Source: Thermobifida cellulosilytica TB100
GTDB lineage: Bacteria; Actinomycetota; Actinomycetes; Streptosporangiales; Streptosporangiaceae
Length of the DNA stretch: 64,000 nucleotides
Assembly (NCBI RefSeq): GCF_001517975.1
Contig: NZ_KQ950180.1
Coordinates: forward strand, 1,180,167-1,244,166
Direction of reading: 5' to 3'
Below are positions 381-62,574 of this stretch, one piece after another (position 1 is the stretch's first letter; every line of letters starts with the position of its first letter). The translations under genes were made by a program, and so were the position numbers. The notes under the pieces are model-generated. The model was not told the DNA's origin. It was given only the letters and a program-made list of their open reading frames with translations, and made no database searches.

Positions 381-382
381 GC

Positions 383-1571
383 GGACCATCCCCACGTGCG
401 TGGGGAGCACTCGGCGCGGCGGCTGGCGTACCAGCCGCCGTCCGGACCATCCCCACGTGCGTGGGGAGCACTCCAGGACGGGCAGGTAGCGGGCGATGGT
501 GCTCGGACCATCCCCACGTGCGTGGGGAGCACAGCTGGTCACTGACCAGTTCCACGACGTCGGCCCGGACCATCCCCACGTGCGTGGGGAGCACAGCTGG
601 TCACTGACCAGTTCCACGACGTCGGCCCGGACCATCCCCACGTGCGTGGGGAGCACGATCCGGTTCCGGTGTACTCCCTGCTACCTGACGGACCATCCCC
701 ACGTGCGTGGGGAGCACCAGGGTAGGCCCCGCACCACCTGGTGCGGGGCCGGACCATCCCCACGTGCGTGGGGAGCACTCATTAAGAATCGTTTCGTCGC
801 GAGACATTTCCGGACCATCCCCACGTGCGTGGGGAGCACCGCAGTCGTGCCGATCCCCATCACGGCCAGGGCGGACCATCCCCACGTGCGTGGGGAGCAC
901 GGCGCCCAGTCGTTCTCGATCTGCTCCTCGATCGGACCATCCCCACGTGCGTGGGGAGCACCAGTCCGCGAACCTGGTCCCGAACTCGGCGACCGGACCA
1001 TCCCCACGTGCGTGGGGAGCACTCGATCGCGCACCACGTCGCGGCCAAGACATCCGGACCATCCCCACGTGCGTGGGGAGCACCCGTTCTGCAAGGAATT
1101 CCCGCTGCCTAAGCCCGGACCATCCCCACGTGCGTGGGGAGCACGGCAGCGGCTCGCCCAGGAGGGCGACGCGATGCGGACCATCCCCACGTGCGTGGGG
1201 AGCACGTGGCATCACGCTTCAGCGTGCGGCCGAAGTGCGGACCATCCCCACGTGCGTGGGGAGCACAGCCTTTTACCTGCTGATTCTCCCCTAGTCGGCG
1301 GACCATCCCCACGTGCGTGGGGAGCACATCCGCGAGCGCAGCGCCCGCACACCGGCCGCCGGACCATCCCCACGTGCGTGGGGAGCACGGCGCCGACGGG
1401 TCGGGGGGGGTGCGGCTAGGGGGACCATCCCCACGTGCGTGGGGAGCACCCGGGCATCGCGCACGCGCGCGCCGTGGCGGACGGACCATCCCCACGTGCG
1501 TGGGGAGCACACGGGCACCCTCCCCCAACGCACTTGGCAGGCCGGACCATCCCCACGTGCGTGGGGAGCAC
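383..1571 (-). CRISPR. Type I-E CRISPR array, 20 repeats and 19 spacers
   Basis: Twenty copies of a 28-base repeat begin at 383, 444, 505, 567, 629, 690 and then every 61 bases to 1544. Read on the minus strand the repeat starts GTGCTCCCC and ends GGGGATGGTCC, the standard actinobacterial type I-E form with a CCCCACG-type stem, so the array is transcribed leftward and position 1571 is the leader end. All repeats appear identical. Spacers are 33 bases, except two of 34 (533-566 and 595-628) that are identical to each other. Several spacers hold perfect inverted repeats. No cas gene is in the window, so the Cascade/cas3/cas1-2 operon must lie elsewhere if it exists. Confidence 0.98.
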
Positions 1572-1640
1572 AGAAGCTGACCTGCGATTTCTCAGGGCGT
1601 TATCTTGGCGTGACCAACCACACGGGCAGCCTCCGGCTGT
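1572..1640 (-). promoter_or_regulatory. CRISPR leader
   Basis: This relatively AT-richer stretch directly abuts the last repeat on the side expected from the type I-E repeat orientation. Its first 35 bases (AGAAGCTGACCTGCG, then TTTCTC and GTTATCTT) recur in diverged form at 2087-2120 beside a decayed repeat pair, which independently marks them as a leader. The right boundary is an estimate. No clear -10/-35 pair is asserted. Confidence 0.65.
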
Positions 1641-1757
1641 GGAGTCAGCCTAGGCCAATTTCGCGGTAGAACGCTGCCGTTCCGGTTGGTTGGTCGGATC
1701 CTGGAGGTGCAGGCACGAAACCCCTAGTGGGGCAATGCGGGCGGGGAAGCCTCCAGT

Positions 1758-1979
1758 CTGCTTCGGCCGGGAGGCCCGGCAGCCTTGACCGCCGCTCCGG
1801 TACCTGAGGGACCGTCGGCTTTCCGCAGCGCTTCGCCATCCGGGAACCCGGCGGCTCCCCTTCCTCAGCGCTGCACCCCCGTTCTTCCCTGGTGCTTCAC
1901 CGCCTGGGACCCCGGCGGCCGACAGCCCCTCCCGTACCCGCGGGGTGGTCAGGGCTGCCGGGCCTCCCGGCCGAAGCAG
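1758..1979. repeat. MITE-like palindrome-ended repeat, copy A
   Basis: A 222-bp non-coding unit begins CTGCTTCGGCCGGGAGGCCC and ends with the reverse complement of that sequence. The terminal inverted repeats are about 33 bp and are themselves self-complementary around CCGGG-AGG-CCCGG. Related units occur at 44785-45312, 46392-46843 and 49482-49768. It lies between the CRISPR leader and the decayed second CRISPR. It encodes no transposase; movement in trans is an inference. Confidence 0.75.
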
Positions 1980-2001
1980 GCGGAGACGGTCACTGCGGCA
2001 C

Positions 2002-37574: not shown

Positions 37575-40500
37575 ATGGCGAGCACAACCAAGGACACGCC
37601 CACCCCCAACGCCCTGGTGGCGGTCCGGGGGCAGAAGTGGGTGGTGAGCCAGGTCGAACCAGCCGGAGAGCAGGCCACCCTGGTGGCCTTGCAGAGCGTC
37701 GAGGACGGCCGCTTCGGCGAGACCCTGGAAGTGATCTGGGAGGTGGAGCCGGGCCGCCGGGTGCTGCCCGCCGGTTCGCTGCCCGAGGTCTCCGTCGCCG
37801 CGGGGTTCGACCCGCCGGACCAGCTCGCCGCATTCCTCGACGCGGTGCGCTGGTCGGCCGTCACCTCCGCCGACGTACGGCTGCTCCAGGCGCCGTTCCG
37901 CTCCGGAGTGACCGTCGAGGACTACCAGTTGGAGCCGGTGTCGCGCGCCGTGGCCGCACCCCGCGTGAACCTGCTGCTCGCCGACGACGTCGGCCTCGGC
38001 AAGACCATCGAGGCCGGCCTGGTCGCCCAGGAGCTGCTGCTGCGGCACCGCGCCAAACGCGTCATGATCGTCTGCCCGGCGGGCCTCACCGTGAAGTGGC
38101 GCGACGAGATGGCCGAGAAGTTCGGCCTGGACTTCACCATCGTGGACTCGGAGCGCTGCGCCAGGGTGCGCCGCGACTTCGGCAGCGCCGCCAACCCGTT
38201 CAACGTGTACCCGCTGACCATCGTCAGCCTGCCGTGGCTGCGCAGCGCGAAGGCGCAGCGGCTGCTCGACGAGGTGCTGCCCGCCGACGGCCCCGGCTAC
38301 CCGCGCGCCTTCGACCTACTGATCCTGGACGAGGCGCACCATGTCGCTCCGGCCGCGCCCAAGCAGGTGTACGCGGTCGACTCGCAGCAGACCAAGCTGA
38401 TCCGCCGACTCGCCCCTCACTTCACGCACCGCCTGTTCCTGTCGGCGACCCCGCACAACGGCTACCAGGCGTCGTTCACCGCGCTGCTGGAGATCCTCGA
38501 CGACCAGCGGTTCGCCCGCGGCGTGGCCCCCGACCGGGCGGCGGTGCGCGAGACGGTGGTGCGCCGCCTCAAGACCGACATTGTGGACGCCGACGGCAAC
38601 CCGCGTTTCCAACGCCGCGAGGCGAAGGCGCTCCCGGTGGTCTACCCGGACAGCGAACGCGAGATCCACGGCCTGCTCACCCGGTTCGCGGAGCTGCGCC
38701 GCGCCAAGATCGCGTCGCGTCGCGGCCGCAAGGCCACCGACCTGGTCACCCTGCTGCTGAAGAAGCGCCTGTTCTCCAGTCCGGCGGCGTTCGCGCACAC
38801 CCTCTCCGTCTACCTGGACACGCTCAACCGCCGCTCCGGCGCGGCCCTGACCACGGTCGACGACGACGTGCCCGAGTGGCTGGAGGACTTCTTCGACGAC
38901 ACCGCCGCCTACGACGACGAGCAGTTGGCAGAGGCGGAGGACGACGCGCTGGACCGCACCCGCCCCATGCAGCCCGACGCCGACTCCGAGGAGACGGCCC
39001 TGCTGGAGCAGATGCTGGAGTGGGCCGTCAGCCACGAGGCCAACGCCGACGCCAAGGCCCGCGAACTGATCGGCTACCTGAAGTCGGTGTGCCGGCCCGA
39101 CCAGCACTGGACCAACGAGCGGGTCGTGGTGTTCACCGAGTACCGCGACACCCTCGACTGGCTGGTGGACCTGCTCCGCCAGGAGGGCATGGGCGGCGAC
39201 CGGGTGGCGGTGCTGCACGGCGGCATGAACGCCCACGAACGCGAACAGGTGCGGCTGGCCTTCCAGAAGCACCCGTCCGAGCACCCGGTGCGCATCCTGC
39301 TGGCCACTGACGCCGCCGGTGAGGGCATCGACCTGCAACGCCACTGCCACCGCCTGGTCAACTACGACATCCCGTTCAACCCGAACAAGCTGGAACAGCG
39401 CATCGGCCGCATCGACCGCTACGGCCAGTCCCAAACCCCCGAGGTGCGGCACTTCGTGGGATCGGGCTGGCAGGGCGCCGTCGACTCCTACGAGGCCGAC
39501 CTGGAGTTCCTGTCCCGGGTCGCCACGAAGGTGGCGCGCATGGAGGAGGACCTGGGCCAGGTCAACGCGGTGCTGGCGGACGCGGTGCAGCGACGCATGC
39601 TCGGCCAGGCCACCGACGTCGACGTGGAGAACGCCGGGTCGCGCAAGGAGCGGCTGGCCTCCGACGCCAACGTCCGCGACCAGGTGCGCAGACTCCGCGA
39701 GAAGCTGGACGCCACCGTCAAGGAGCTGGGCCTGACCCCCGACCGGGTGAAGCGGGTCGTGGACACCGCGCTGGCCCTCGCCAACCAGCAGAGCCTCACC
39801 CCCCACGTCGACGAGCGGGAGCTCGCCGAGGGCCTGTTCGACGTGCCCACGCTCACCGACTCGTGGGCGCGCGCCGCCGAAGGGCTGACGGAGAAGCTGC
39901 CGTCGGGCGGCGAGCCCCGGCAGCTTCCGGTCACCTTCGACCCGGAGGTGGCGCGGGGCCGCGACGACGTGGTGCTCGCGCACCTCAACCATCCGCTGGT
40001 GGCGATGTCCACGCGGCTGCTGCGCGCCGCCGTGTCCAACGACCGGGTGGGGCTGCGCCGGGTGACGGCCGTGGTCAGCGACGATCCGGCCCTGGAGGAC
40101 GTACTGGTCGGCGCCTACTCGCGGTTCGTGCTGGTGGGCGCCGACGGCATCCGACTGCACGAGGAGGTGCTGTACGCGGGCGGGTGGGCGCCCGAGCACG
40201 GCCGGTTCCGCCGCTTGGAGAACCTGGGCGTGCTCGGCGGCATCCTGGACCGCGCGCTCACCAGTGGCCGCCCCGCCTCGGACGTGGTGTGGCAGCGCGT
40301 CGCGCAGCGGTGGCCGCAGATCTCCGACGGCCTCATGTCGGCCGTCAAGTGGCGGAAGAAGACCCGTCAGGAGTCGCTGGGCCGCCAGTTGGAGCAGCGC
40401 GCCGCCGAGGAACGCGAGCGGATCACCTCCGTGTTCAAGCAGTTCTCCGCGACCCTGCGCGCCGCGCTCGCGGCGGACCCCGACGACGCCGAGGACGCCC

Positions 40501-40709
40501 TGTTCAGCCGAGTCGAGCTGGAGAAGTCGAAGGAGGAGTTGGAGCAGTACCGGCGCGACCGCCGCAACTGGCAGCGCCGCCTCGACGAGCTGGACGCCGA
40601 ACGCGAACGCGAACTGGCGGCGATCGAGGCCCGCTACAGCCGCCAGGAGCCGCACCTGTTCCCCGTCGCCGTGGTGTTCGTCATTCCGTCCCGGGAGGCC
40701 GTCCGATGA
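37575..40709 (+). CDS. drmD: DISARM SNF2-like helicase DrmD
   Basis: A 1044-residue protein from ATG 37575 (GAGGA upstream). It has the SNF2/RapA-like helicase layout: motif I ADDVGLGKTIEAG near residue 138, motif II ILDEAHHVAP near 252, SATPHNGY, and the C-terminal lobe ATDAAGEGIDLQRHCHRLVN and QRIGRIDRYGQ near 575-615, then a long helical C-terminus. The immediate downstream partner is an adenine methylase overlapping by four bases (ATGA); this pair defines class 1 DISARM. DrmD is thought to translocate on duplex DNA as part of restriction of unmodified phage DNA. Confidence 0.93.
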   Translation: MASTTKDTPTPNALVAVRGQKWVVSQVEPAGEQATLVALQSVEDGRFGETLEVIWEVEPGRRVLPAGSLPEVSVAAGFDPPDQLAAFLDAVRWSAVTSADVRLLQAPFRSGVTVEDYQLEPVSRAVAAPRVNLLLADDVGLGKTIEAGLVAQELLLRHRAKRVMIVCPAGLTVKWRDEMAEKFGLDFTIVDSERCARVRRDFGSAANPFNVYPLTIVSLPWLRSAKAQRLLDEVLPADGPGYPRAFDLLILDEAHHVAPAAPKQVYAVDSQQTKLIRRLAPHFTHRLFLSATPHNGYQASFTALLEILDDQRFARGVAPDRAAVRETVVRRLKTDIVDADGNPRFQRREAKALPVVYPDSEREIHGLLTRFAELRRAKIASRRGRKATDLVTLLLKKRLFSSPAAFAHTLSVYLDTLNRRSGAALTTVDDDVPEWLEDFFDDTAAYDDEQLAEAEDDALDRTRPMQPDADSEETALLEQMLEWAVSHEANADAKARELIGYLKSVCRPDQHWTNERVVVFTEYRDTLDWLVDLLRQEGMGGDRVAVLHGGMNAHEREQVRLAFQKHPSEHPVRILLATDAAGEGIDLQRHCHRLVNYDIPFNPNKLEQRIGRIDRYGQSQTPEVRHFVGSGWQGAVDSYEADLEFLSRVATKVARMEEDLGQVNAVLADAVQRRMLGQATDVDVENAGSRKERLASDANVRDQVRRLREKLDATVKELGLTPDRVKRVVDTALALANQQSLTPHVDERELAEGLFDVPTLTDSWARAAEGLTEKLPSGGEPRQLPVTFDPEVARGRDDVVLAHLNHPLVAMSTRLLRAAVSNDRVGLRRVTAVVSDDPALEDVLVGAYSRFVLVGADGIRLHEEVLYAGGWAPEHGRFRRLENLGVLGGILDRALTSGRPASDVVWQRVAQRWPQISDGLMSAVKWRKKTRQESLGRQLEQRAAEERERITSVFKQFSATLRAALAADPDDAEDALFSRVELEKSKEELEQYRRDRRNWQRRLDELDAERERELAAIEARYSRQEPHLFPVAVVFVIPSREAVR

Positions 40710-43700
40710 GTCCCCGTCCTCGCCGTTCCCGCCCCGCCGCCCCCGACAGTGCGCAGCAGCACCGCGAGTGGCTGTCGCTGATCGAGGTGAGCGGCCCGTT
40801 CCTGTCGCTGCCGGTGCTCCGCGACACCTGGCCGAGCCTGGAGGCGCTGACCAAGGAGCAGGTCGCTGCACTGCGCCGGGCGCACACCGCCTGGCAGGCC
40901 GACACGGCCGCCGGACAGCGCCCCTGGGTGGACTTCGTGCTCGGCGAACTGCTCGACTGGCGGGAGGAGTACCGCACCGACGCCGAGGAGCTGGCGGGCC
41001 TCGCGATGGAGGTGCCCGAGCACGACACCACGGTCACCCCGTCGTTCGCCCTCGTGGAGCCGGGCGAGGACGTCAAGCCGGACACGGTGCGGCTGCTCGG
41101 CCTGGTGTGTCCGCCGAACGCCTCCCCCACGGCCCGCGTGAAGGGCGAGGCGTGGTCGGCGACCCCCGTGGACCGGCTCGCCCAGTTGTGCCGTCACCAC
41201 GGCGTGGAACTGGGCCTGGCCACCGACGGCCGCTGGTGGGTGCTGGTGTGGGCGCCGCGCGGCGGCGTCACCACCACCGCCGTGTTCGACGCGGTCGCCT
41301 GGGCGGAGGCCGCCGAACGGATCGTGGTGCGCGCGTTCTTCTCGCTGCTGGGCCGCAGCCGCTTCTTCGCGGTGCCCGACGAGGAGACGCTCGTACCGCT
41401 GCTGCGCAAGAGCCTGGACTCTCAGGAGGAGATCACCGAGGCCCTCGGCGTGCAGGTCCGCCAGGCCGTGGAGCTGCTGGTCGCCGCGATCGGCCGCGCC
41501 GACACCTGGTCCCGGGAGCACGGCGAGCCCAGTCTGGCGCACGTGCCCGCGCACGAGGTGTACCGGGGCGCGGTGTCGGTGATGATGCGCGTGGTGTTCC
41601 TGCTGTTCGCGGAGGAGCGGAAGCTGCTGCCGTCCGACAACGAGCTGTACGCCAGGGCGTACTCGGCGGGCCGGCTCTGCGCCGAACTGGAGCAGCGCGC
41701 CCTGGAGGGCTCCGAGGAGGAACTGGAGAACACCTACACCGCCTGGCACCGGCTGCTCGCCCTGTTCAACGCGGTCTACCACGGCGTGGACCACCCGAGG
41801 CTGCGCATGACCGCGCACGACGGGTCGCTGTTCCACCCGGACCAGTTCGCGTGGCTGCCGCTGCACATCGACGACCGCACCGTGCTGCACATGCTGCGCG
41901 CCGTGCAGTACGTCGAGATCGGCTCGGGCCGGTCGAAGGAGCGGCGCAAGCTGTCGTTCCGCACCTTGGACGTCGAGCAGATCGGCTACGTGTACGAGGG
42001 CCTACTGTCCTTCGACGGCTTCCGCGCCGACGACGTGGTCGTGGGCCTGGTCGGCAAGGAGGGCCGCGAGGAGGAGGTGCGCCTCGCCGACCTGGAGGCG
42101 CTGGCGGCGCACCACTCCGACCTGAGCGGACTGGCGAAGGCCGTCTCGGACGCCTACAGGCAGTCCGGCATCGGTTCGGCGCGGGCCGTGGAGAAGCGGC
42201 TGGCCCCGCTGTCGGGCGCGGCGAGGGAGGAGGCCCGCAAGAAGCTGCTCGCGGTGACCCGCGGCGACTACCCGCTGGCGGAGCGGCTGCTGCCGTTCTT
42301 CGGGATTCTCCGCACCGACCTGCGCGGACTGCCGGTGGTGGTGCTGCCGGGCGAGCTGTACGTGACGGAGTCGCCGCTGCGCCGGAACACGGGCACGCAC
42401 TACACGCCGCGCTTCCTCGCCGAACAGGTCGTCGAGGGCGCGCTGGAGCCCTTGGTGTACGAACCGGGGCCGTTGCAGACCGCCGACCGCGACGAGTGGA
42501 AGCTCAAGTCGAGCGCCGAGATCCTGGACCTGAAGGTCGCCGACATCGCGATGGGCTCGGCGGCGTTCCTCGTCGCCGCGGCCCGGTACCTGGGCGACCG
42601 CCTCATCGAGGCGTGGGTCGCCGAAGGCGACGAACGGGTCCGCGACTACACCCCCACCGGTGACGGGTTGGGGGCCGACGAGGACCCGGTCGTCATCGAG
42701 GCACGGCGGCAGATCATCGAGCACTGCCTGTACGGGGTGGACATCAACCCGATGGCCGTGGAGATGGCAAAGCTGTCGCTGTGGCTGGTGTCCATGGACC
42801 CGAAGCGGCCGTTCACGTTCCTGGACGACCGACTGGTGGCGGGGGACTCGCTGCTGGGGATCACGTCCCTGGAGCAGGTCGAGTACATGCACATGGACCC
42901 GAAAAGGGGTAAAGAGGTCCACGACCGACTCGATCCGCAACTCCTGGCGAACGTGCGCTCGGTGGTTTCAGGAATCGCCAAAGAGCGCCGAAGGATCACC
43001 GAGGTCGACGGCGGAACGATCGATGGCGTGCACCGCAAAAGCTCCATTCTCGCCGGAGTACGACTGGACACCGGATACGCCGAACTGTTCGCCGACCTGT
43101 GTGTGGGAGCAGCGCTGGCCCATGTCAAGCGCGGGGACACCGGCCTGAGAAACGGTTCTATCCTGGCCGCCGACTACGCTCGACGGATCGACACCGCCGA
43201 GGCCCAGGCCCGCGAACAGATCCGGGAATGGCTGGAGACAGACAGGCCGGAAGGGGCCTTCAAGCGGGAGCCGCTCCACTGGCCACTGGTGTTCCCGGAA
43301 GTGTTCGAAAAGGGCGGATTCGATGCGGTGATCGGGAATCCTCCGTTCTTGGGAGGACAGAAGCTCACCGGAGCCCTGGGAACCGCGTACCGCGAACACT
43401 TGGTGCACGGTATCGGCCACGGTGCTCGGGGAAGCGCCGACCTAGTCGCCTACTTCGCACTTCGGGCGCATGACGTCCTCAATAGCGGTGGTCAGACCGG
43501 ACTGATCGCCACCAATACCTTGGCTCAAGGAGACACCCGGGAAGTCGGGTTGGACCAACTGGTCGCTAACAAGGTCACCATCCGGCAGGCAGTCAAGAGC
43601 AAACCTTGGCCTTCAAAGAGTGCAGCTCTGGAGTACTGCGCGGTATGGGGAAGCAGGGCCGAACTGTCGGACAAGGCCAAGAAGATTCTTGACGGAAGCG

Positions 43701-44755
43701 AGGTAGCGGGCATCACTCCTTCACTGGACCCTGCTTCCCGGGTGAGTGGAAATCCGGAGCGGCTTGCGAGCAACAGGGGGATTTCCTTCCAGGGGAGCAA
43801 CATCCTCGGCACAGGCTTCACTATGCCCCCCGAAAAGGCACAAGAACTCATCGAGAAGGACCCACGCAACAAGGAAGTCCTCTTCCCCTACCTCAACGGG
43901 CAGGACCTGAACACGCGCCCGGACTACTCGGGGAGCCGTTGGGTCATCAACTTCCACGACTGGTCAGAGGAACGCGCGAAGGAGTACCCGGAGTGCTACG
44001 AGCAGGTCGTCAAGCTGGTTAAGCCAGATCGAGAGCAGAACAAACGCAAAGCTCGCCGGGATCGATGGTGGCAATATGCTGAGATAGCACCAAACCTTTA
44101 TACGGCTATTTCTGACCTAGATCGCACCATCGCAATTACCCTCGTCAGTAAGACTGTAATGCCAATGATGGTGTCGACTGGCCAAGTTTTCTCGCATATG
44201 CTGGCAGTCTTTGCCACCGACGACACCGCCATTCTGGCCTTGCTCTCAAGCTCGCCGCACTACTGGTGGGCCAAGTCCCGTGGCTCTTCAATGAAGGCCG
44301 ATCTCCGCTACACCCCCTCCGACGTCTTCGAAACTTTCCCTCTCCCTGAACTCACCGAGGAACTGCGCGAGCTCGGCTCCCGCCTGGACTCCTTCCGTCG
44401 GGACGTGATGCTCTCCCGTCAGTCCGGTCTCACCAAGACCTACAACCTGGTCTTCGACCCGGAGTGCTCCGACGACGACATCGAGGAGCTGCGCCGGATC
44501 CACAAAGCCATCGATGAGGCCACTGTCCGCGCCTACGGCTGGGAGGAGCGCATCGAGAAAGTCGGCAGCCTCGACCACGGGTTCCACAAGGTCGGCAGGA
44601 AGGAACTCCGCTACACCATCGGCCCGGCCGCCCAGCGCGAGATCCTGGACAGCCTGCTTGAGCTGAACCACGAGCGCTACGCCCAAGAGGTCGCCCAAGG
44701 CCTGCACGACAAGAAGAAGGGCACGCGCGCCACCCAGCAGAGCCTGCTTGACTGA
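40706..44755 (+). CDS. drmMI: DISARM adenine-specific DNA methyltransferase DrmMI
   Basis: A 1349-residue protein, translationally coupled to drmD. The N-terminal 550 residues are the helical region seen in large Eco57I-like methylases. The catalytic core has the SAM motif as DIAMGSAAFLVAAARYL near residue 612 (the usual GSG is GSA) and the N6-adenine motif NPPF in DAVIGNPPFLGGQ near 878. The C-terminal third carries target recognition; around positions 43980-44290 base composition is less GC-rich than elsewhere in the gene, suggesting a swapped specificity segment. It should methylate host DNA at N6-adenine so that DISARM spares it. Confidence 0.93.
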   Translation: MSPRPRRSRPAAPDSAQQHREWLSLIEVSGPFLSLPVLRDTWPSLEALTKEQVAALRRAHTAWQADTAAGQRPWVDFVLGELLDWREEYRTDAEELAGLAMEVPEHDTTVTPSFALVEPGEDVKPDTVRLLGLVCPPNASPTARVKGEAWSATPVDRLAQLCRHHGVELGLATDGRWWVLVWAPRGGVTTTAVFDAVAWAEAAERIVVRAFFSLLGRSRFFAVPDEETLVPLLRKSLDSQEEITEALGVQVRQAVELLVAAIGRADTWSREHGEPSLAHVPAHEVYRGAVSVMMRVVFLLFAEERKLLPSDNELYARAYSAGRLCAELEQRALEGSEEELENTYTAWHRLLALFNAVYHGVDHPRLRMTAHDGSLFHPDQFAWLPLHIDDRTVLHMLRAVQYVEIGSGRSKERRKLSFRTLDVEQIGYVYEGLLSFDGFRADDVVVGLVGKEGREEEVRLADLEALAAHHSDLSGLAKAVSDAYRQSGIGSARAVEKRLAPLSGAAREEARKKLLAVTRGDYPLAERLLPFFGILRTDLRGLPVVVLPGELYVTESPLRRNTGTHYTPRFLAEQVVEGALEPLVYEPGPLQTADRDEWKLKSSAEILDLKVADIAMGSAAFLVAAARYLGDRLIEAWVAEGDERVRDYTPTGDGLGADEDPVVIEARRQIIEHCLYGVDINPMAVEMAKLSLWLVSMDPKRPFTFLDDRLVAGDSLLGITSLEQVEYMHMDPKRGKEVHDRLDPQLLANVRSVVSGIAKERRRITEVDGGTIDGVHRKSSILAGVRLDTGYAELFADLCVGAALAHVKRGDTGLRNGSILAADYARRIDTAEAQAREQIREWLETDRPEGAFKREPLHWPLVFPEVFEKGGFDAVIGNPPFLGGQKLTGALGTAYREHLVHGIGHGARGSADLVAYFALRAHDVLNSGGQTGLIATNTLAQGDTREVGLDQLVANKVTIRQAVKSKPWPSKSAALEYCAVWGSRAELSDKAKKILDGSEVAGITPSLDPASRVSGNPERLASNRGISFQGSNILGTGFTMPPEKAQELIEKDPRNKEVLFPYLNGQDLNTRPDYSGSRWVINFHDWSEERAKEYPECYEQVVKLVKPDREQNKRKARRDRWWQYAEIAPNLYTAISDLDRTIAITLVSKTVMPMMVSTGQVFSHMLAVFATDDTAILALLSSSPHYWWAKSRGSSMKADLRYTPSDVFETFPLPELTEELRELGSRLDSFRRDVMLSRQSGLTKTYNLVFDPECSDDDIEELRRIHKAIDEATVRAYGWEERIEKVGSLDHGFHKVGRKELRYTIGPAAQREILDSLLELNHERYAQEVAQGLHDKKKGTRATQQSLLD

Positions 44756-44784
44756 CGCCGCCCACCTGCCCCGGAATTAATTGG

Positions 44785-44860
44785 ACTCCCGAGGCCCGGC
44801 AGCCAACAATCCCTCCCCCGCCCGAAGAGCGGCCAAGGCTGCCGGGCCTCCCGGCCGAAG
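44785..44860. repeat. MITE-like repeat, internally deleted copy B1
   Basis: A short unit has both inverted ends (CTCCCGAGGCCCGGCAGCC and GGCTGCCGGGCCTCCCGGCC) separated by only about 30 bases. It starts about 30 bases after the drmMI stop. Confidence 0.65.
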
Positions 44861-44931
44861 ACACCGGATGGTTCACCGCCTGTCCCGACTCCGGCCGCTC
44901 CGGGGCTGATGGGGACCTTGACACTTCCTGT

Positions 44932-45088
44932 CTGCTTCGGCCGCGAGGCGCGGCAGCCCTGAGGCCCGCTCCGGTCCCGGAGGGATGACCACCCACCCGC
45001 AACGCTCCACCCCCGAAGACCCGCCACCTAACAATCCCTCCCCCGCCCGAGGACCGGTCAAGGCTGCCGGGCCTCCCGGCTGAGGCAG
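44932..45088. repeat. MITE-like repeat, copy B2
   Basis: A 157-bp unit beginning CTGCTTCGGCCGCGAGGCGC and ending in GGCTGCCGGGCCTCCCGGCT, GAGGCAG. It is nearly identical to copy B3 70 bases on, so these two are a recent tandem duplication. Confidence 0.75.
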
Positions 45089-45157
45089 ACCAGCCACCCC
45101 ACCGCCCGCCGCACCCTCGGTCGCCCCAGGGCTGATGAAGACTCCGACACTTCCTGT

Positions 45158-45312
45158 CTGCTTCGGCCGCGAGGCGCGGCAGCCCTGAGGCCCGCTCCGG
45201 TCCCGGAGGGATGACCACCCACCCGCAGCGCTTCACCCCCGAAGACCCGCCACCTAACAATCCCTCCCCCGCCCGAGGACCGGTCAAGGTTGCCGGGCCT
45301 CCCGGCCGAAGC
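45158..45312. repeat. MITE-like repeat, copy B3
   Basis: About 155 bp, near-identical to B2. Its right end lies about 40 bases from the end of the DUF559 gene (stop at 45351). Confidence 0.75.
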
Positions 45313-45350
45313 AAACCGGCAAGTTCACCAGCAACCCCGACCGGTGTCGG

Positions 45351-46304
45351 TTATTCCTCTCGTAGTGGTCGTCCCAGTCCGATGGCCGTTGTCTGCTGTG
45401 TGTAGCGGAACTCCTCCCTGTTCCTGCGCTGGCACATGCAGATGTAGTTGATCCGTTTGCGGATGGTCGCCAGCGTTCCCGCCGGGGCAGACCAGCCGCG
45501 TTCGTGCAACTGGTGCAGTAGCCTCGCGAACAGCACGTCCGGCTGGTGCAGCACCGAACCGGAGCGCACCGCCAGCACCGTCCAGCCCTCACTCTCCAGC
45601 GCGCCGCGCCGCCGACGGTCGCGCAGCACATCGGAGAACCTCGTGTGGTGCTCCCGCCCGTCGTACTCGATCGCCAGGCGGTAGTCGGGATAGGCCAGAT
45701 CCAACCGCACGATGCCGTGGCCGGAAACGTCCAGGCGGTACTGGCCGACCGGGCGGGGCAGGCCGGCGTCCAGGATCAGACAGCGCGTCCAGCTCTCCCC
45801 CGGGGATTCGGCCGCAGGATCGCACACCCGCAGCACCGAGCAGACGACGGCGTCTCCCCGCTGTCCGGCGAACTCCAGGCCGCGCCGCTGGAGCCGGTCA
45901 AGCTCCACCCCGGCCCGCAGGATCTGGTCGACTGCGGCCACGGCCTCCAGCCGGGGCAGGGACCGGGCGCAGTCCAGGGCCGTGCGTTCCAACGTGGTCA
46001 CCCGAATGCCTGCGACGGTGCACACGTCGCCCTCGGGCAGCACGGCCTCGTGGATGTCGCATCCGGCCAGACCACGGGGGCGTACACCCGGCGCGACGAC
46101 GACCTGCAACGGCCAGGCGGCTTCCGCCACTCCCGGGGGCAGCACGTCCAGACCGTGCAGGGCAGCGGCGGCCCGCCCCACCAGGACAGCGTCCCCGAGC
46201 GTGTCGCCCAGCAACGCCGCCCGCTCGGCGATGGTCCCGCCACGGGGATGGCGGCGTTGGACGAACCCGGCGGCGTGCACCGAATACGGAGGAAGACTGC
46301 TCAT
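45351..46304 (-). CDS. DUF559 (Vsr-like) endonuclease-domain protein
   Basis: A 317-residue protein from ATG 46304. The N-terminal half resembles the DNA-binding/antitoxin-like region found before DUF559 in actinobacteria (AERAALLGDTLGDAVLVGRA; VTTLERTALDCARSLP). The C-terminal half has the PD-(D/E)XK-type nuclease core: VRLDLAYPDYRLAIEYDGRE, then RDRRRRGALESEGWTVLAV. Catalytic Asp, Glu and Asp are all present. It is bracketed on both sides by tandem MITE-like repeats. Role unknown; an accessory nuclease or a mobile cargo gene in the DISARM gap. It would be a solitary gene with no obvious partner. Confidence 0.78.
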   Translation of the reverse strand: MSSLPPYSVHAAGFVQRRHPRGGTIAERAALLGDTLGDAVLVGRAAAALHGLDVLPPGVAEAAWPLQVVVAPGVRPRGLAGCDIHEAVLPEGDVCTVAGIRVTTLERTALDCARSLPRLEAVAAVDQILRAGVELDRLQRRGLEFAGQRGDAVVCSVLRVCDPAAESPGESWTRCLILDAGLPRPVGQYRLDVSGHGIVRLDLAYPDYRLAIEYDGREHHTRFSDVLRDRRRRGALESEGWTVLAVRSGSVLHQPDVLFARLLHQLHERGWSAPAGTLATIRKRINYICMCQRRNREEFRYTQQTTAIGLGRPLREE

Positions 46305-46391
46305 GCCCCCAGGGTCCGGCAGCGTCCCCGGCATCGAGCAAGACTCTTCCCCAGGCTGTGGACAGCTCTACGCCACACCGACAGTCCCCGT

Positions 46392-46581
46392 CTGCTTCGG
46401 CCGCGAGGCGCGGCAGCCTTGAGGTCCGCTCCGGTTCCTGGGGGACTGCCACCCACCCGCAACACTCCACTCCCGGCCAACCTGCGACCGTGTGACGGCG
46501 CTTCACTCCCGAAGACCTGTCACCCAACAACCCCTCCCTCACCCGAGCGGCGGACAAGGCTGCCGGGCCTCCCGGCCGAAG
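46392..46581. repeat. MITE-like repeat, copy C1
   Basis: A 190-bp unit with ends CTGCTTCGGCCGCGAGGCGC and GGCTGCCGGGCCTCCCGGCC, GAAG. The interior and the following spacer closely match those of C2, and the spacer to C2 matches the B1-B2 spacer. Confidence 0.75.
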
Positions 46582-46651
46582 ACACCGGATGGTTCACCGC
46601 CCACCCCACCCCGGCCGCTCCGGGGCTGATGGGGACCTCAACACTCCCTGT

Positions 46652-46843
46652 CTGCTTCGGCCGCGAGGCGCGGCAGCCTTGAGGTCCGCTCCGGTTCCTG
46701 GGGGATGGCCACCCTCCCGTAGCGCTTCACCCCCGGCCAGTCTGTGGCCGTGTGACGGCGCTTCACTCCCGAAGACCTGTCACCTGACAATCCCTCCCGT
46801 ACCCGAGCGGCGGTCAAGGCTGCCGGGCCTCCCGGCTGAAACA
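46652..46843. repeat. MITE-like repeat, copy C2
   Basis: A 192-bp near-duplicate of C1. Together with C1 it lies upstream of the DUF559 gene and mirrors the B cluster on the other side. Confidence 0.75.
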
Positions 46844-47208: not shown

Positions 47209-47215
47209 TGCGTCC

Positions 47216-49481: not shown

Positions 49482-49541
49482 CGGCAACCCCTCCCGCACC
49501 CAAGGACCGGGCAGGGCTGCCGCGCCTCGCGGCTGAGGCAG
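49482..49541. repeat. MITE-like repeat, right-half remnant D1
   Basis: Only the right end of the element is present: CAACCCCTCCCGCACCC, then GGGCTGCCGCGCCTCGCGGC and TGAGGCAG. The left inverted end is missing, probably lost when the terminator-side sequence formed or by deletion. Confidence 0.55.
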
Positions 49542-49608
49542 ACCGGAAGGGTTGAGATCCTCCACCAGCCCAAACCCCTCGGAAACCGGGCAGGCGGTGA
49601 AGTGGCTG

Positions 49609-49768
49609 GTTCGTTTCGGCCGGGAGGCCCGGCAGCCCTGACCGCCGCTCCGGTACCGGAGGGACTCCCACCCTCCCGCAACGCTTTGCCACCGGATACC
49701 CGCCACCCGACAACCCCTCCCACACCCGAGGAACAGGGCAAAGCTGCCGGGCCTCCCGGCCGAGGCAA
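49609..49768. repeat. MITE-like repeat, copy D2
   Basis: A 160-bp full copy: left end GTTTCGGCCGGGAGGCCCGG, right end CTGCCGGGCCTCCCGGCCGA. The interior (ACAACCCCTCCCACACC) matches the other copies. The 497-bp gene-free stretch 49427-49923 is filled by the terminator, D1, D2 and about 150 bases of leader to the next gene. Confidence 0.7.
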
Positions 49769-56126: not shown

Positions 56127-59100
56127 ATGTCCGACGCACTCTTCCCCAACCCCCACGGCGAGCAGACCGAACTCGACACCTCCGAACCGCCCCCGCCGGA
56201 CCCCGCAGACCTCCTCGACCAGTCGCAGCCGTTCACCCAGGCCGCCTCGTTCCAGGTGCGCGACGCCTTCCAACGGCTCGTGGAACGCGACCTGCTCGGC
56301 CCCTGGGACGGCGACCACGAGCGTTTCGCCCCGAGGGCGCGCGGCCCCCGCGACCGCTACCTGGTGGGCATGCTCGGTCCCCGGCACCACGCGCCCCGGC
56401 GCGGCGAGTCCGCCATCACCCTCGACACCTCCACCGGTGTCGCGGGTGAAGCACGCGGCGAGGAGGGGGCGGAACTGCCCGAGGTGCTGCCCGCGCAGCC
56501 CCTCGGCCGCCTGTGGGCCTCGTCCATGGGACTGTCCTGCCGCGTGGCCGCCGACACCGACGTGCTCGTGGTCACCGCCGCCTGGGGCGAGTACACCCGG
56601 GAGAAGACCGAGGACGAGGAGGGCCGCCAGCGCACCGTATGGGCGCGCGTGCCCCGCCGCCACGTCCGGGAGGTCCGCCTCGACGGCGCCCCCGACCAGC
56701 GCATCGCCCTGACCGCCGACGATCCCGACAGCTCCTGCGTCTACCTGGCCGTCGCGGTGCGCCCCGCGGGGACGACCCGCACCGTCGAACTCTCCCTGGT
56801 CAACAACCAGCGGGAACCCGACTCCGCCCTGGACACGGCGTGGCTGTTCCAGACGGAACTCACCGTCACCGCACTGGACGGCAGCTCCCCGGTGTTCCTG
56901 CCCATCGACGACCCGCTGACCGAGGACGCCCCCCACGTGGACGACCCGGAGGAGCTGCACCTGCGGCTCCTCTACCGCGACCAGCTCAAGTACGCCACGG
57001 GCCACAACGTCGCCGTGCACGCCGACGCCGTCCCCGAGCTGCGCCGCGCCCGCACCCTGCGGACCACCTGGCTGCCCAGCTACGACGTGCCCGCCACTGT
57101 GGCCCCCGACGGGGAGGGCACCCCGCTCGCCGACGCCCTGCTGTCCATGGACGCCCTCGCCGAGGCCGCCCCCGACACGCTGCGCACCGGGCTGGCGCCG
57201 CTCGCCGACGGGTACGAGGCATGGCTCGACGAGCGCGCCGCCGAGATCCCCGGCCTGCCCGCGCGTCTCGGCAAGGCCGCCGAGGCCGCGGTGTTCCGCG
57301 CCCGCCGCGTCGCCGAACGCATCCGCGCGGGCATCGCCCTGCTCACCGACCCGGCCGTGCCCGGCCACGCGGACGCACTGCGCGCCTTCCGGTTCGCCAA
57401 CCGGGCCATGGCCGCACAGCGGCGGCACACCGAGATCGCACGGCTGCGCCAGGACCCGTCGATCAGCTACGTCGAGGCCGAACGGCGGGTGCGGGAACGC
57501 GGCCCCTCCGCGGCGTCGTGGCGCCCCTTCCAACTGGCGTTCATCCTGCTCAACCTGCCGTCGATCGCCGACGTGGACCACCCGGACCGCACCTTCGCCG
57601 ACGGCGTGGTGGACCTGCTGTTCTTCCCCACCGGCGGCGGAAAGACCGAAGCCTACCTGGGACTGACCGCGTTCACCTTCGCCGTCCGGCGGCTCCAGGG
57701 CACGGTCGGCGCCGGCGAAGACGCGCGCGACGGCGCGAGCGGGGTGGCCGTGCTGATGCGCTACACGCTGCGGCTGCTCACCGCCCAGCAGTTCCAGCGC
57801 GCCGCCGCGCTGGTGTGCGCGGCCGAGGTGCTGCGCGCCGAGGACCCCGCCACCTGGGGCTCCGAGCCGTTCCGCATTGGTCTGTGGGTGGGGATCGGGG
57901 TCTCCCCGAACTGGTTCGACGAAGCCAGGGACCAGATCGCCGCGGCCCGCGAATCCGGCAGCGGCCGACGTGCCAACGTGCTGCAGACCGTGACGTGTCC
58001 GTGGTGCGGCGCCGCGCTGCACGCCTACCGCGACCTGCGCACCGTCGAAGGACTCCGGCGGGTGCTGCTGTTCTGCGGCAACGGCGAGGGGGCCGACGCC
58101 TGCCCGTTCTCGCGGAAGCACTCCCAGGAAGGGCTGCCGATCCTCACCGTGGACGAGGAGATCTACCGGCTGCTGCCCAGCCTGGTCATCGCCACCGTGG
58201 ACAAACTGGCGCAACTGCCGTGGAAGGGCTACGCGGGCATGCTGTTCGGCCGGGTGCACGAGTACTGTCCCCGGCACGGCTACCGGCACGACGACCTGGA
58301 CGAGAAGACCGGCTGCGGCTCCCGCCACAACAAGAAGGGCGACCTGCCTGCCGTGTCCAGCCGCCCCGTGGTGCGGCTGCGCCCGCCGGACCTGATCATC
58401 CAGGACGAGCTGCACCTGATCTCCGGCGCGCTGGGCACCACGGTCGGCCTGTTCGAGTCGGCCGTGGACGAGCTGTGCACGTGGACCACGCCGAACGGCA
58501 CGGCGACCGGGCCGAAGATCGTGGCGTCCACCGCCACCACCAAACGCGCCGCCGCGCAGGTGCGGGGCGTGTTCGCGCGCGGCCTGGAGATCTTCCCACC
58601 GCAGGTCACCGACGTTGCCGACACGTTCTTCTCCCGGCAGGCGCCGGTCACCGAGGCCACCCCCGGACGACGCTACCTGGGGGTGTGCGCACACGGCACC
58701 CGGTTGAAGTCCGCGGAGATCCGGATCGCCGAGATCCTGCTGCTCGCCGGGCAGACCGTGTTCGACCGGTACGGCGCGCCCGCCGACCCGTACATGACCC
58801 TGGTCGGCTACTTCAACGCCACCCGGGAACTGGCGGGCATGCGCCGCTACCTCGACGACGACGTGGTGACCCGGGTGCGGCGCAGCAGGCCCGGCCTGTC
58901 GCGTCGGCTCGTCGGCGCCGCGAAGCTGCTCACCGTCCAGGAGCTGACCTCGCGCATCTCCTCCGGCGACATCAGCGAGGTGCTCAAGCACCTGGAGGTC
59001 GGCTTCGACCCGGACCTCGACACCACCGGGCGCCAGGAGGCCGTCATCAGCCACGTCCAGGACGTCCGCAAACGGCACGGCAGGCAGAAGGGGTGGGACC

Positions 59101-59921
59101 AGCTTCCGCTGCACCCGGTCGCCCGCCGCTCCTACGACCGGTCCGACCGGCTCCCGGTGGACGTGGTGCTGGCCACCTCCATGCTCCAGGTGGGTGTGGA
59201 CGTGTCCCGGTTCGGTCTGATGATGGTGGTCGGCCAGCCCAAGAACACCGCCGAGTACATCCAGGCCTCGTCCCGGGTGGGACGTGACCCGGCCCGCCCC
59301 GGCCTGGTCCTCACCCTCTACAACTGGTCCCGCCCCCGGGACTTGGCGCACTACGAGGACTTCGAGCACTACCACGCCACCTTCTACCGGCAGGTGGAGG
59401 CGCTCAGCGTCACCCCGTTCACCCGCCGCGCCCTGGACCGGGGCGCGGCCGGCGCGTTCGTCGCGGCGGTGCGCAACACCGTCGAACACCATTCGCGGGA
59501 GGGCGACGCCCACGACGTGGACCTGGACGGCCCCGAAGTGCGGCGGATCACCGAGCGGATGCTGGCCCGGGCGGAACGGGTCGGTGGTCCGCGCGGCCGC
59601 GACTACCTGGAGGAGCGGCTCAACCGGCTGCGGGATGTCTGGCAGCGGGAGCGGACCGGGGAGACCCGGCTGGGCTACGACTCCGGCGTCTCCCACGGGC
59701 AGCGGCTGAAAGGGCTGCTCACCAAGGCGGGCACCGGCTCGTGGGACGACACTACGGTCGGCATGTCGATGCGTGAGACCGAGAACGAGATCAATCTGTT
59801 GGTTCCCGGCAACGGAGGGGTCTACCACGAGGCCCTCGGGGCGCCCGAGTGGTCGTTCGCCCCGCCGGGCGGTGAGGACGCCCCCGCGGGTCCGGGGAGC
59901 GGCGAGGAGGTGCGGCAGTGA
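56127..59921 (+). CDS. drmA: DISARM helicase DrmA
   Basis: A 1264-residue protein from ATG 56127 (GGAAGG upstream). The N-terminal 450 residues are the family-specific region. The helicase core has motif I FFPTGGGKTEAYLG near residue 505, motif II IIQDELHLISGALG near 757, a zinc-like pair CPWCG near 625, SQVGRDP-type motif VI as ASSRVGRDPARPG near 1048, followed by NWSRPRDLAHYEDFEHYHAT, typical of DrmA. It overlaps drmB by four bases. DrmA works with DrmB as the core DNA-binding complex of DISARM, sensing free DNA ends and unmethylated DNA. Confidence 0.93.
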   Translation: MSDALFPNPHGEQTELDTSEPPPPDPADLLDQSQPFTQAASFQVRDAFQRLVERDLLGPWDGDHERFAPRARGPRDRYLVGMLGPRHHAPRRGESAITLDTSTGVAGEARGEEGAELPEVLPAQPLGRLWASSMGLSCRVAADTDVLVVTAAWGEYTREKTEDEEGRQRTVWARVPRRHVREVRLDGAPDQRIALTADDPDSSCVYLAVAVRPAGTTRTVELSLVNNQREPDSALDTAWLFQTELTVTALDGSSPVFLPIDDPLTEDAPHVDDPEELHLRLLYRDQLKYATGHNVAVHADAVPELRRARTLRTTWLPSYDVPATVAPDGEGTPLADALLSMDALAEAAPDTLRTGLAPLADGYEAWLDERAAEIPGLPARLGKAAEAAVFRARRVAERIRAGIALLTDPAVPGHADALRAFRFANRAMAAQRRHTEIARLRQDPSISYVEAERRVRERGPSAASWRPFQLAFILLNLPSIADVDHPDRTFADGVVDLLFFPTGGGKTEAYLGLTAFTFAVRRLQGTVGAGEDARDGASGVAVLMRYTLRLLTAQQFQRAAALVCAAEVLRAEDPATWGSEPFRIGLWVGIGVSPNWFDEARDQIAAARESGSGRRANVLQTVTCPWCGAALHAYRDLRTVEGLRRVLLFCGNGEGADACPFSRKHSQEGLPILTVDEEIYRLLPSLVIATVDKLAQLPWKGYAGMLFGRVHEYCPRHGYRHDDLDEKTGCGSRHNKKGDLPAVSSRPVVRLRPPDLIIQDELHLISGALGTTVGLFESAVDELCTWTTPNGTATGPKIVASTATTKRAAAQVRGVFARGLEIFPPQVTDVADTFFSRQAPVTEATPGRRYLGVCAHGTRLKSAEIRIAEILLLAGQTVFDRYGAPADPYMTLVGYFNATRELAGMRRYLDDDVVTRVRRSRPGLSRRLVGAAKLLTVQELTSRISSGDISEVLKHLEVGFDPDLDTTGRQEAVISHVQDVRKRHGRQKGWDQLPLHPVARRSYDRSDRLPVDVVLATSMLQVGVDVSRFGLMMVVGQPKNTAEYIQASSRVGRDPARPGLVLTLYNWSRPRDLAHYEDFEHYHATFYRQVEALSVTPFTRRALDRGAAGAFVAAVRNTVEHHSREGDAHDVDLDGPEVRRITERMLARAERVGGPRGRDYLEERLNRLRDVWQRERTGETRLGYDSGVSHGQRLKGLLTKAGTGSWDDTTVGMSMRETENEINLLVPGNGGVYHEALGAPEWSFAPPGGEDAPAGPGSGEEVRQ

Positions 59922-61813
59922 GCGACCAGTACCGTCGCAAGGTCGGCACGATCCGGCCCAGCCACCTGATGTTCACCGGAGGCGTCGGCGCACTGGTGGA
60001 CCTGCCCAACTTCTCCGTCCTGGTGAGCGGGCTGGACTCGTGGCGCTACGACAACGTCCCCGACCACGCGCCCATCGAGGAGCCGCGGCTGCTGGCCGCA
60101 GTCCAGCGGATTCCCGGGAACCGACAGGTCAAGGAGCTGCGTCCGGCCCCGTGGATGGACGACTCCGACTCCGGCGCCAACAGTCCGGCGGCGCGGGTGG
60201 GGGTGCCGACCGTCCCGTTCCCCACGTGGCTGCGCTGCACCGCCTGCGACGAGCTCGCTCCGCTGGCCAGCAAGACCTTCCTGTTCGAGAACGACCGGCC
60301 CAGCCGCCCGCACGACGCGCGGTTCTTCCACGAGCGCTGCGCCAGGAAGAAGGGCCGCAGGCCGCTGGCGGTGCCCGCGCGGTTCGTGCTCGCCTGCCCC
60401 GCGGGCCACCTCGACGACTTCCCCTACCGGCAGTTCGTCCACTACGGACAGCCCTGCCCCAAAGTGGGGAAGTTCTCGCGGATGCGGATGAAGGACCAGG
60501 GCGGCAACCTGGGCGCCAACGTCACCCTCCAGTGCCTGAGCTGCGAGGCCCAGCGGAACATGCGCGACGCGCTGGGCGACAACAGCAGTGGCCTGCCGCA
60601 CTGCCGGGGCCGCCACCCCCACCTGGGCACGTTCGCGGAGGACGGCTGCGACCAGCGTCCCCGGGTCCTGGTGGTGGGCGCGTCCAACCAGTGGTTCGCG
60701 CAGACCCTGTCGGTGCTGTCGCTGCCCCAGAGCCCCGCCAGGGAACTGGAGGGCCTCGTCGAGCATTACTGGGAGCAGTTGGCACCGCTTCCCCCAGCGA
60801 TGTACCCCTACGCCCGCGAGAACGTCTCTGCGCTGCGTGCCTTCGAGAAGTGGAACGACGCCGAACTCGCCGCCGCGGTCGAGCGGGTGCGCGCCCGCCG
60901 GGAGGGCCAGGACGGCGACGACCAGGGCGACCGCCTGGACCTGCGCACCCCCGAGTGGGAGACGCTGTCCTCGCTCCCCGCACCCGACCCCGACCCGAAC
61001 TTCGCGCTGCGCCGTGACCCCGACGGCGTGCCCGCTCCGCTCAAGCGGATCTTCTGCGACGTGGCGCAGGTGGAGCGGCTGCGCGAGGTGCGCGCCCTCG
61101 TCGGCTTCACCCGGCTGGACGCCCCCGACCCCGAGGACTCCGAACTGGTCACCCGCGCTCCGCTGAGCCGCGAGGAGCCCACCTGGGTGCCGGCCAGCGA
61201 GGTGCGCGGCGAGGGCGTGTTCCTGCGCGTGCCCGAAGAACTGCTGGCCGCCTGGGAGCGGCGGGTGGAGAACTCCGAGGCGTTGCGCCGCCACCGCGAG
61301 GCATACGCCCAGTACCGGCGCAACCGCTACTCCGGCCGGATCAGGGGAGAGTTCGACGAGATGCGGCACTGGCCGGGGGCCCGCTACATCGCCCTGCACA
61401 CCCTGTCGCATCTGCTGATCCGCACGATCGCTCTGGACTGCGGATACAGTTCGGCGAGCCTGTCGGAGCGCATCTACACCAGCACTCCCGAGGACCCCCG
61501 CGGCGGCATCCTCATCTCCACGGCGGTGCCCGACTCGGAAGGCACTCTCGGCGGTCTGGTGTCGCAGGCCGAACCGGACCGGCTGGTGTGGCTGGTGCGG
61601 CGGGCGCTGCGCGACGCCACCCGCTGCTCCTCCGACCCGCTGTGCAAGGAGCGACTGCCGCAGCCGTACGCCGACTTCCTGCACGGCGCTGCCTGCCACG
61701 TGTGCCTGTTCGTGTCGGAGACCACGTGCGAGCGCGGCAACCGGTTCCTGGACCGCCGGTTCGTGGTGCCCGTCGACGACCCGGAACTGGCACTCTTCGG
61801 TGAACTGCCGTGA
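59918..61813 (+). CDS. drmB: DISARM protein DrmB (DUF1998)
   Basis: A 631-residue protein from GTG 59918. It carries many Cys pairs that should bind zinc: LRCTACDEL near residue 108, LACPAGHLDDFPYRQFVHYG near 160, LQCLSCEAQ near 207 and AACHVCLFV near 593. The C-terminal DUF1998 region has LHTLSHLLIRTIALDCGYSS and SERIYTS. In DISARM it partners with DrmA to form the core complex. Translationally coupled to both neighbours. Confidence 0.93.
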   Translation: MSDQYRRKVGTIRPSHLMFTGGVGALVDLPNFSVLVSGLDSWRYDNVPDHAPIEEPRLLAAVQRIPGNRQVKELRPAPWMDDSDSGANSPAARVGVPTVPFPTWLRCTACDELAPLASKTFLFENDRPSRPHDARFFHERCARKKGRRPLAVPARFVLACPAGHLDDFPYRQFVHYGQPCPKVGKFSRMRMKDQGGNLGANVTLQCLSCEAQRNMRDALGDNSSGLPHCRGRHPHLGTFAEDGCDQRPRVLVVGASNQWFAQTLSVLSLPQSPARELEGLVEHYWEQLAPLPPAMYPYARENVSALRAFEKWNDAELAAAVERVRARREGQDGDDQGDRLDLRTPEWETLSSLPAPDPDPNFALRRDPDGVPAPLKRIFCDVAQVERLREVRALVGFTRLDAPDPEDSELVTRAPLSREEPTWVPASEVRGEGVFLRVPEELLAAWERRVENSEALRRHREAYAQYRRNRYSGRIRGEFDEMRHWPGARYIALHTLSHLLIRTIALDCGYSSASLSERIYTSTPEDPRGGILISTAVPDSEGTLGGLVSQAEPDRLVWLVRRALRDATRCSSDPLCKERLPQPYADFLHGAACHVCLFVSETTCERGNRFLDRRFVVPVDDPELALFGELP

Positions 61814-62574
61814 CCCGCTTCGAGGAGGCTGCCTCCGCCGCCGCGGCCGCGCTGGGCGCCGAGGCGTTGGACGCGCTCGCGGAACGGATCGCCGCCGGGT
61901 GGCCGCCCCACGCGATCCTCGGCGAACGGGGGTGGCGCTTCGACGAGGCGGCCGCACCCGTGCTCGCCGCCCTCGACGGGGAGGTGCCGCCGCCGGAGGC
62001 GGCCGCCTACCTGCGTGGGCTGGCCGAAGGGCTGCGCCGGGGCCGCTCCGACACCACCGTGGAGACGGTGTGGAGCGGCCCCGCCAGCAACGCCGTGCCG
62101 GTGCGCGCCACCGCGCAGGTACTGCTCGACGTGATCGCCGAAACGACCCGCGAACTGAGGTTGATGACCTACTCGGCCCGCCCGCACCGGGAGGTGCGGG
62201 CCGCACTGGCCGCGGCCGTGGCGCGGGGGGTGGCGGTCACGGTGGTGGTGGAGACGCTCCGCGGTGCGGGCGGTGCGTTGGAAGGCGACGAGCCCGCCGC
62301 CGCATTCGCCGGGATCGGCGGGGTGCGGGTGTGGCACTGGCCGACCGGCCAGCGGGCCGTCCGGCACGGCAAGATGCACGCGAAACTGGCCGTCGGCGAC
62401 CGGAGGACGCTGCTCGTGTCCAGCGCGAACCTCACCCAGTCCGGGGTTGCCGCCAACATCGAGGCAGGGCTGCTGGTGCGCGGCGGCCCCGCGCCGCGAC
62501 GGGTCGCCGAGCACATCGACGCGTTGCAGGCTGCCGGTGTGCTCCGGCCGTTCGGTGGAGGACGGGACTCGTGA
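61810..62574 (+). CDS. drmC: DISARM phospholipase-D-like protein DrmC
   Basis: A 254-residue protein from GTG 61810, overlapping drmB. A single PLD-type HKD motif is visible, HGKMHAKLAVGDRRTLLVSS, ANLTQSG, near residues 187-215, so a dimer would form the active site. The N-terminal region is helical. Family knowledge: DrmC is part of most DISARM loci but is dispensable in some tested systems. Last gene of the drmA-B-C block. Confidence 0.92.
   Translation: MTRFEEAASAAAAALGAEALDALAERIAAGWPPHAILGERGWRFDEAAAPVLAALDGEVPPPEAAAYLRGLAEGLRRGRSDTTVETVWSGPASNAVPVRATAQVLLDVIAETTRELRLMTYSARPHREVRAALAAAVARGVAVTVVVETLRGAGGALEGDEPAAAFAGIGGVRVWHWPTGQRAVRHGKMHAKLAVGDRRTLLVSSANLTQSGVAANIEAGLLVRGGPAPRRVAEHIDALQAAGVLRPFGGGRDS

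Follow-up and report, generated by a model that had tools for sequence, protein, structure and literature searches.

The locus studied here raises the question of how a single nuclease gene came to lie between two clusters of palindromic repeats beside a DISARM system. It is part of a 64-kb stretch of DNA (the window) from the source genome (G000, 4.43 Mb), which was compared with three congeneric genomes (G001, G002 and G003). An earlier note on this DNA had regarded the gene as the cargo of a composite-style element bracketed by MITE-like copies.

The nuclease gene and its flanking repeats

The AbiEi-like/DUF559 gene is found at 45351..46334 on the minus strand, as an intact open frame of 327 amino acids. 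The earlier note had placed it at 45351-46304; the open frame is indeed present there, but it extends to 46334, and position 46304 is an internal ATG. Residues 46-143 correspond to an AbiEi-like N-terminal region in PADLOC profiles only, a Pfam search of the protein giving no AbiEi match, while residues 211-276 are predicted by profile match to form a C-terminal DUF559/REase_MTES_1575 domain. The protein belongs to DUF559 by its PF04480 match (25.4 bits, above the cut-off of 20.6). The score for PF18741 is slightly below the cut-off (37.2 against 38.2 bits), and that for NCBIfam NF007294 is far below it. The PADLOC matches comprise three AbiEi profiles, PDC-S37 and Hhe, and no Drm profile. A role as DISARM component was rejected, since there is no Drm match and the gene is absent from all three congeneric DISARM loci. 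The gene resembles the AbiEi-like/DUF559 genes of Actinobacteria: relatives were found at 77 loci in the contig database, apparently actinobacterial, as their titles name such organisms so far as these were recognised. The best relative from the same genus is 46% identical. What sets the gene apart from its actinobacterial counterparts is its position in a repeat-bounded segment beside DISARM.

Five palindromic repeat copies were found around the gene in the sequence and by a repeat search, which confirms the bracketing described earlier. Copies B1 to B3 are located between the stop codon of drmMI (44755) and the 3' end of the nuclease gene. B1 (44785..44880) has a truncated left arm and a right-arm hairpin at 44837-44859, and is the counterpart of a single repeat in G001. 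B2 (44920..45095) carries its left arm at 44936 (+) and its right arm at 45062 (-), and B3 (45146..45325) at 45162 (+) and 45288 (-). Upstream of the gene start, C1 (46385..46601; arms at 46396 (+) and 46558 (-)) is followed by C2 (46645..46861; arms at 46656 (+) and 46818 (-)), the outer flank of which is collinear with G001. The clusters represent different spacing subtypes, with 126 bp between the arms in cluster B and 162 bp in cluster C.

The two flanks form a long direct repeat, as had been claimed: 44785-45091 and 46505-46847 are 77% identical over 344 columns. The longest exact match between left and right flank is 47 bp, whereas 20 dinucleotide shuffles averaged 10.2 bp and never exceeded 12 bp. 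For the best local alignment, the score of 327 compares with an average of 25 and a highest value of 34 over 100 such shuffles. The near-identity of the B1-B2 and C1-C2 spacers was also borne out (68 of 76 columns); the B2-B3 spacer shares 56 matches of 77-79 columns with either of them. For the units themselves, near-identity holds within the clusters, with 96% for B2 and B3 (175 columns) and 88% for C1 and C2 (225 columns), but not between them, as B2/B3 and C1/C2 are only 70-73% identical when compared as units. B1 and C1 are 88% identical over 97 columns. By these alignments, near-identity is confined to units of the same cluster and to B1 plus its spacer compared with C1 plus its spacer.

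A family of hairpin repeats at CRISPR leaders

The repeats are not specific to the nuclease site, a possibility that was rejected in view of 90 matches across G000. The arm consensus, TTCGGCCGSGAGGCSCGGCAGCC, is a hairpin with a six-pair stem and an AGG loop; outside the stem it reads GTCTGC-TTCG (61 arms). One stem pair is variable. Among 65 G000 arms it is G-C in 37 and C-G in 24, the rest being C/C (twice), G/G and T/G. By direct count, this pair is complementary in 61/65 arms of G000, 32/34 of G002 and 12/14 of G001; the hairpin is kept by compensatory changes. The arms alternate in orientation, with left-right spacings commonly of 126-127 and 161-167 bp and a right-left spacing of 96-100 bp in arrays like that of the nuclease locus. 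Other spacings occur too, as do single arms and both pair orders. Fully symmetric hairpin cores are present at L134:4944 and L142:10520, and these look like elements that may have collapsed by loss of their interior.

The family is present in three of the four genus genomes examined, with at least 90 matches in G000, at least 48 in G002, at least 16 in G001 and none in G003. These counts are lower bounds because scoring covered a fraction of the initial candidates (40 of 134 in G000, usually 25 in other genomes). Outside the genus, one weak match was obtained in each of 2 of 27 genomes. An Rfam identity was rejected, as the three matches all fall below their gathering scores (best E 0.006).

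MITEs are small non-coding repeats with inverted ends and many copies, and the G000 repeats are likewise small, non-coding, inverted-ended and multi-copy. They differ from MITEs in that no target-site duplication was read and that single arms and both pair orders occur. Rather than as MITE-like, the repeats are better described as a REP-like (BIME/REPIN-style) family of paired hairpins. They share with the REP, BIME and REPIN families (as presented in the available portions of PMC3116915, PMC3733652 and PMC2817692) the short palindromes with covarying stems, the alternating inverted pairs, the regular spacings and some tandem clusters with flanks. Their tens of copies are within the range given for many families in the accessible text of PMC3733652. 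According to what is available of PMC3116915, REPINs can form tandem clusters that take in flanking sequence, and conserved spacers within a cluster are therefore unsurprising in themselves. There are also differences. REP families have GTAG or CGTC tags next to the hairpin, and the CGTC repeats, too, lack a Y1 transposase (both from the accessible text of PMC3733652); at the consensus level, neither tag is found in the 61 G000 arms. A search for the Y1 (RAYT-type) transposase (PF01797) gave no match in G000 and was positive in 5 of 14 control genomes. The G000 repeat, moreover, holds a fixed position at CRISPR leaders.

In the window, a CRISPR array with a 61-bp period and a type I-E-like repeat occupies 381..1572 (minus strand). 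Eight other G000 arrays have leaders that align with that of the window array (1573..1740, minus strand). A copy of the palindromic element lies outside this leader at 1750..1985, its arm edge 195 bp from the first CRISPR pattern hit. Degenerate CRISPR-like sequence was noticed beyond the element, at about 2010-2090. When 13 G000 array starts were aligned, nine were found to share the leader; in 9/9 of these, the distance between hairpin arm and first CRISPR pattern hit is 193-197 bp. The starts without the shared leader are C1:1178781, C3:301466 (preceded by N), C3:526426 and C7:62963. Two further leader matches lie on contig C2, in the region of the sole I-E cas1 profile match; no arm at <=5 mismatches was detected there in the 27 kb fetched.

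The window and 19 other G000 stretches, all but L150 taken around repeat matches, together cover 341 kb, equal to 7.7% of G000, and hold 367 of the 436 CRISPR-repeat pattern hits of G000 (both strands, some hits overlapping). Together with 58 hits in further stretches, 425 of the 436 were placed. Fourteen of 36 repeat groups are located less than 600 bp from an array, where 0.34 would be expected (binomial 1.7e-19), in a test that assumes independent repeat groups, which is untrue if arrays carried the element along.

At the sister leader loci (seven each in G001, G002 and G003, with 1.5-kb flanks) and at the array fragment L200, no element was found outside the leader, and the single arm hit at these loci (5 mismatches) falls within an array. 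G003 has at least one more leader-like match (C18:43373) in addition to these 21 loci. In the sisters, similarity to the 201-bp leader query is confined to its inner 60-130 bp, of which about 30 bp are the first CRISPR repeat; outer leader and element therefore go together in G000. Arrays can be dispersed without the element, since G001, G002 and G003 have many CRISPR arrays that are devoid of it. In G002, an array is also found in the neighborhood of the window array, and the element past its far end is the counterpart of G000 L137:5854. In addition to this counterpart, G000 has further elements, one of them at the leader. The CRISPR-leader/hairpin pattern is stronger than the original finding at the nuclease flanks. 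Among the matches listed in the literature search (titles and abstract starts), none described palindromic repeats at Thermobifida CRISPR leaders or a DUF559 cassette bounded by repeats.

Corresponding loci in the congeneric genomes

The DISARM genes of the window are drmD (helicase, 37575..40709), drmMI (methyltransferase, 40724..44755, scanned from 40724) and drmA, drmB and drmC (56127..62574), all on the plus strand. They were identified by profile match, and each is matched by a full-length or near-full-length open frame. The gap between drmMI and drmA contains the nuclease gene and a further cluster of repeat elements at 49515..49764 (arms at 49515 (-), 49615 (+) and 49742 (-)). Its length is 11.4 kb in G000; in G001 and G003, where the nuclease is absent, it comes to about 21.9 kb and 4.9 kb, respectively. 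The earlier note had seen the cassette exactly at the break in DISARM; a break that depends on the cassette is not supported, nor is the nuclease the cause of the gap, because the gap is present without it in G001 and G003.

Several other genes were noticed in this part of the genome. Directly beside DISARM, 29631-32564 matches the SngC profile and 33132-37454 the SngA profile, which we take to be Shango defence proteins. Three consecutive genes at 17726-24735 have PD-T4-6 and mad6 profiles as their best PADLOC matches. Paralogues of HATPase_c_2 are dispersed near the same repeats (window 48986-49426, L142:7637-8056 and L146:6382-6873), and those in L142 and L146 are accompanied by an HTH/DUF5753 regulator.

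In G001, positions 38724-44880 of the window align to 3-6143 of the orthologous stretch, and positions 46774-49390 to 6053-8666. The aligned parts overlap in G001, and one 90-bp repeat is therefore found where G000 has B1 to C2 and the gene. The segment absent from G001 (44881..46773, about 1.9 kb) is situated between B1 and C2, with its boundaries inside these copies. The G001 repeat is worn; it resembles B1 on the left and runs into the C2 flank on the right. The junction lies inside the repeat, and no target-site duplication is readable there. The UTRA regulator adjoining the nuclease is 98.9% identical in G001. No tblastn match to the nuclease (E<=1e-4) was obtained in the DISARM loci of G001, G002 and G003; that of G002 (drmMI protein identity 43-55%) has diverged too far to be treated as the same locus. 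A comparison with strains lacking the nuclease had been proposed earlier, and the G001 locus, with its one worn repeat and no nuclease, provides it. As far as sequence comparison can tell, the repeat-bounded nuclease segment is a presence/absence unit, because the DISARM locus of G001 has one repeat and no nuclease.

Other repeat-bounded blocks are missing from sister genomes as well. In L133, a CRISPR array lies between repeat groups in a stretch of about 4.2 kb that neither G001 nor G002 possesses. The absent stretch extends 160-170 bp past the outer repeats, the sisters carry other DNA (1.0 and 2.7 kb), and no target-site duplication is evident by eye. When L136 was aligned with CRISPR repeats and arms masked by N, no G001 counterpart was seen for its array and GntR-like gene, which lie between repeat pairs; the interval in G001 contains a single repeat pair within 1.85 kb of other DNA. 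The array of L145 is missing in G001, and G002 has one CRISPR hit at <=4 mismatches; here the absent stretch is 9 kb and extends well past the right-hand repeat. L134 and L145 have a block in common (2313 columns at 92.6%), which begins inside a hairpin. On the opposite side of this junction, a CRISPR leader is present in L134 and the far end of another array in L145. At the L134 joint the hairpin is fully symmetric and has outer-type flank to its left and right, which is what deletion of an element's interior between its two hairpins would leave. In L135/L160 and L147/L155, aligned with the same masking as L136, the repeats are retained in place with no cassette. Assembly N runs occur in L133, L134, L138, L140, L142, L144, L148 and L149, and none in the window or L145; that of L134 (10315-10408) is away from the joint.

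A few features of these loci stand by themselves. L133:5474-5549 is a leader-like fragment (81% to the C1:1062997 leader), outside the element and on the far side of the array. L132:410-9028 and L149:72-8181 are related two-gene loci, 65-70% identical at the DNA level in the aligned parts. The genes of L132 are DruE-like and DpdE-like, with a repeat arm at L132:5955, and in L149 arms come directly after the neighboring gene. L149:12835-13652 is a tandem duplication of about 747 bp that carries a right-left arm pair; L154 of G002 contains a single pair of this kind, plus part of a second flank copy. G000 and G002 are 98% identical over 12 kb at L135/L160, where the element arrays of L135 are kept, and up to 99% in parts of L149/L154. 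Where the two genomes align at L133, L137, L145 and L146, identity is mostly 74-91%. The high identity at L135/L160 and L149/L154 suggests recent exchange.

Origin of the nuclease segment

Since all three relatives are without the nuclease at DISARM, gain appears favored over loss without being settled; the evidence on this point comes from G001 and from G003, itself free of the repeat family, in a genus represented by four genomes. With moderate confidence, we propose that a nuclease block with repeats at its ends recombined into an old single repeat downstream of drmMI, and that the clusters then grew by unequal exchange. The nuclease would be a lineage-specific cassette gained at this resident repeat. 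Incoming DNA bounded by related repeats would have recombined into the single old copy, resulting in clusters on both sides, and later unequal exchange would have enlarged each of them (B2-B3 and C1-C2). In G000, CRISPR arrays and regulator genes may likewise owe their movement to recombination at the dispersed hairpin repeats. That repeat-bounded blocks (CRISPR arrays, the nuclease and regulator genes) were gained and shuffled by hairpin recombination is the likeliest explanation; the direction of gain, the mechanism of recombination and any present-day mobility are what we infer. The flank identity (77%, 47 bp exact), however, would support only modest homologous recombination and speaks against this best reading. 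So do the absent stretches of L133 and L145 that overrun the repeats, the other DNA found in the sisters at L133 and L136, the repeats retained without a cassette in L135/L160 and L147/L155, and the many sister arrays devoid of the element.

A wider proposal treats the hairpins as joints of a modular shuffling of defence genes. Arrays away from the cas locus would have spread as REPIN-bounded cassettes, the AbiEi/DUF559 nuclease and the regulator genes would be modules, and the recombination would be directed by the hairpins. This proposal is tentative.

It is unlikely that the cassette was ancestral between its clusters and was deleted in G001 by recombination of B1 with C2, leaving one hybrid repeat. 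The G001 repeat, B1-like on the left with C2 flank on the right, is what such a scar would be, but an original single repeat would look identical. G003 lacks the nuclease too (and the repeats), and loss therefore needs more events. Equally doubtful is a series of independent events, in which the nuclease arrived in some other way, and REP-like copies built up and were tandemly duplicated on both sides later. The repeats are common in G000, and tandem clusters with flanking sequence are an ordinary REPIN arrangement in the part of PMC3116915 available, but the absent segment starts and ends within repeat copies, and other repeat-bounded blocks are missing from the sisters as well.

Composite transposons carry a cargo gene between direct repeats, and their flanking copies encode a transposase. 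The nuclease segment resembles them in having a cargo gene between direct repeat clusters and in being present or absent between species. It differs in its flanks, which are non-coding palindrome arrays about 77% alike, with units (96-217 bp) too short for a transposase gene. With these REP-like flanks, no Y1 match in G000 and no target-site duplication read, the earlier description as a composite element is not supported in the transposon sense. A composite or REPIN-type element moved by an unrecognised recombinase or transposase acting on the hairpins is very improbable. In its favor, the hairpin is conserved and covarying, two fully symmetric arms resemble collapsed elements and one block junction lies inside a hairpin; against it, the Y1 family search of G000 gave no match, no target-site duplication was read and the left and right clusters differ by 23-30%.

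Capture at a resident repeat remains the preferred reading. In our view, a good explanation is still wanting for how CRISPR arrays and individual defence genes move within genomes. In G000, nine arrays have one simple repeat at a fixed edge, and the nuclease gene has it on both sides. With such repeat-marked edges, and with sister sites that lack several of the blocks, there are defined junctions at which the dispersal of arrays and the turnover of defence genes can be tested.
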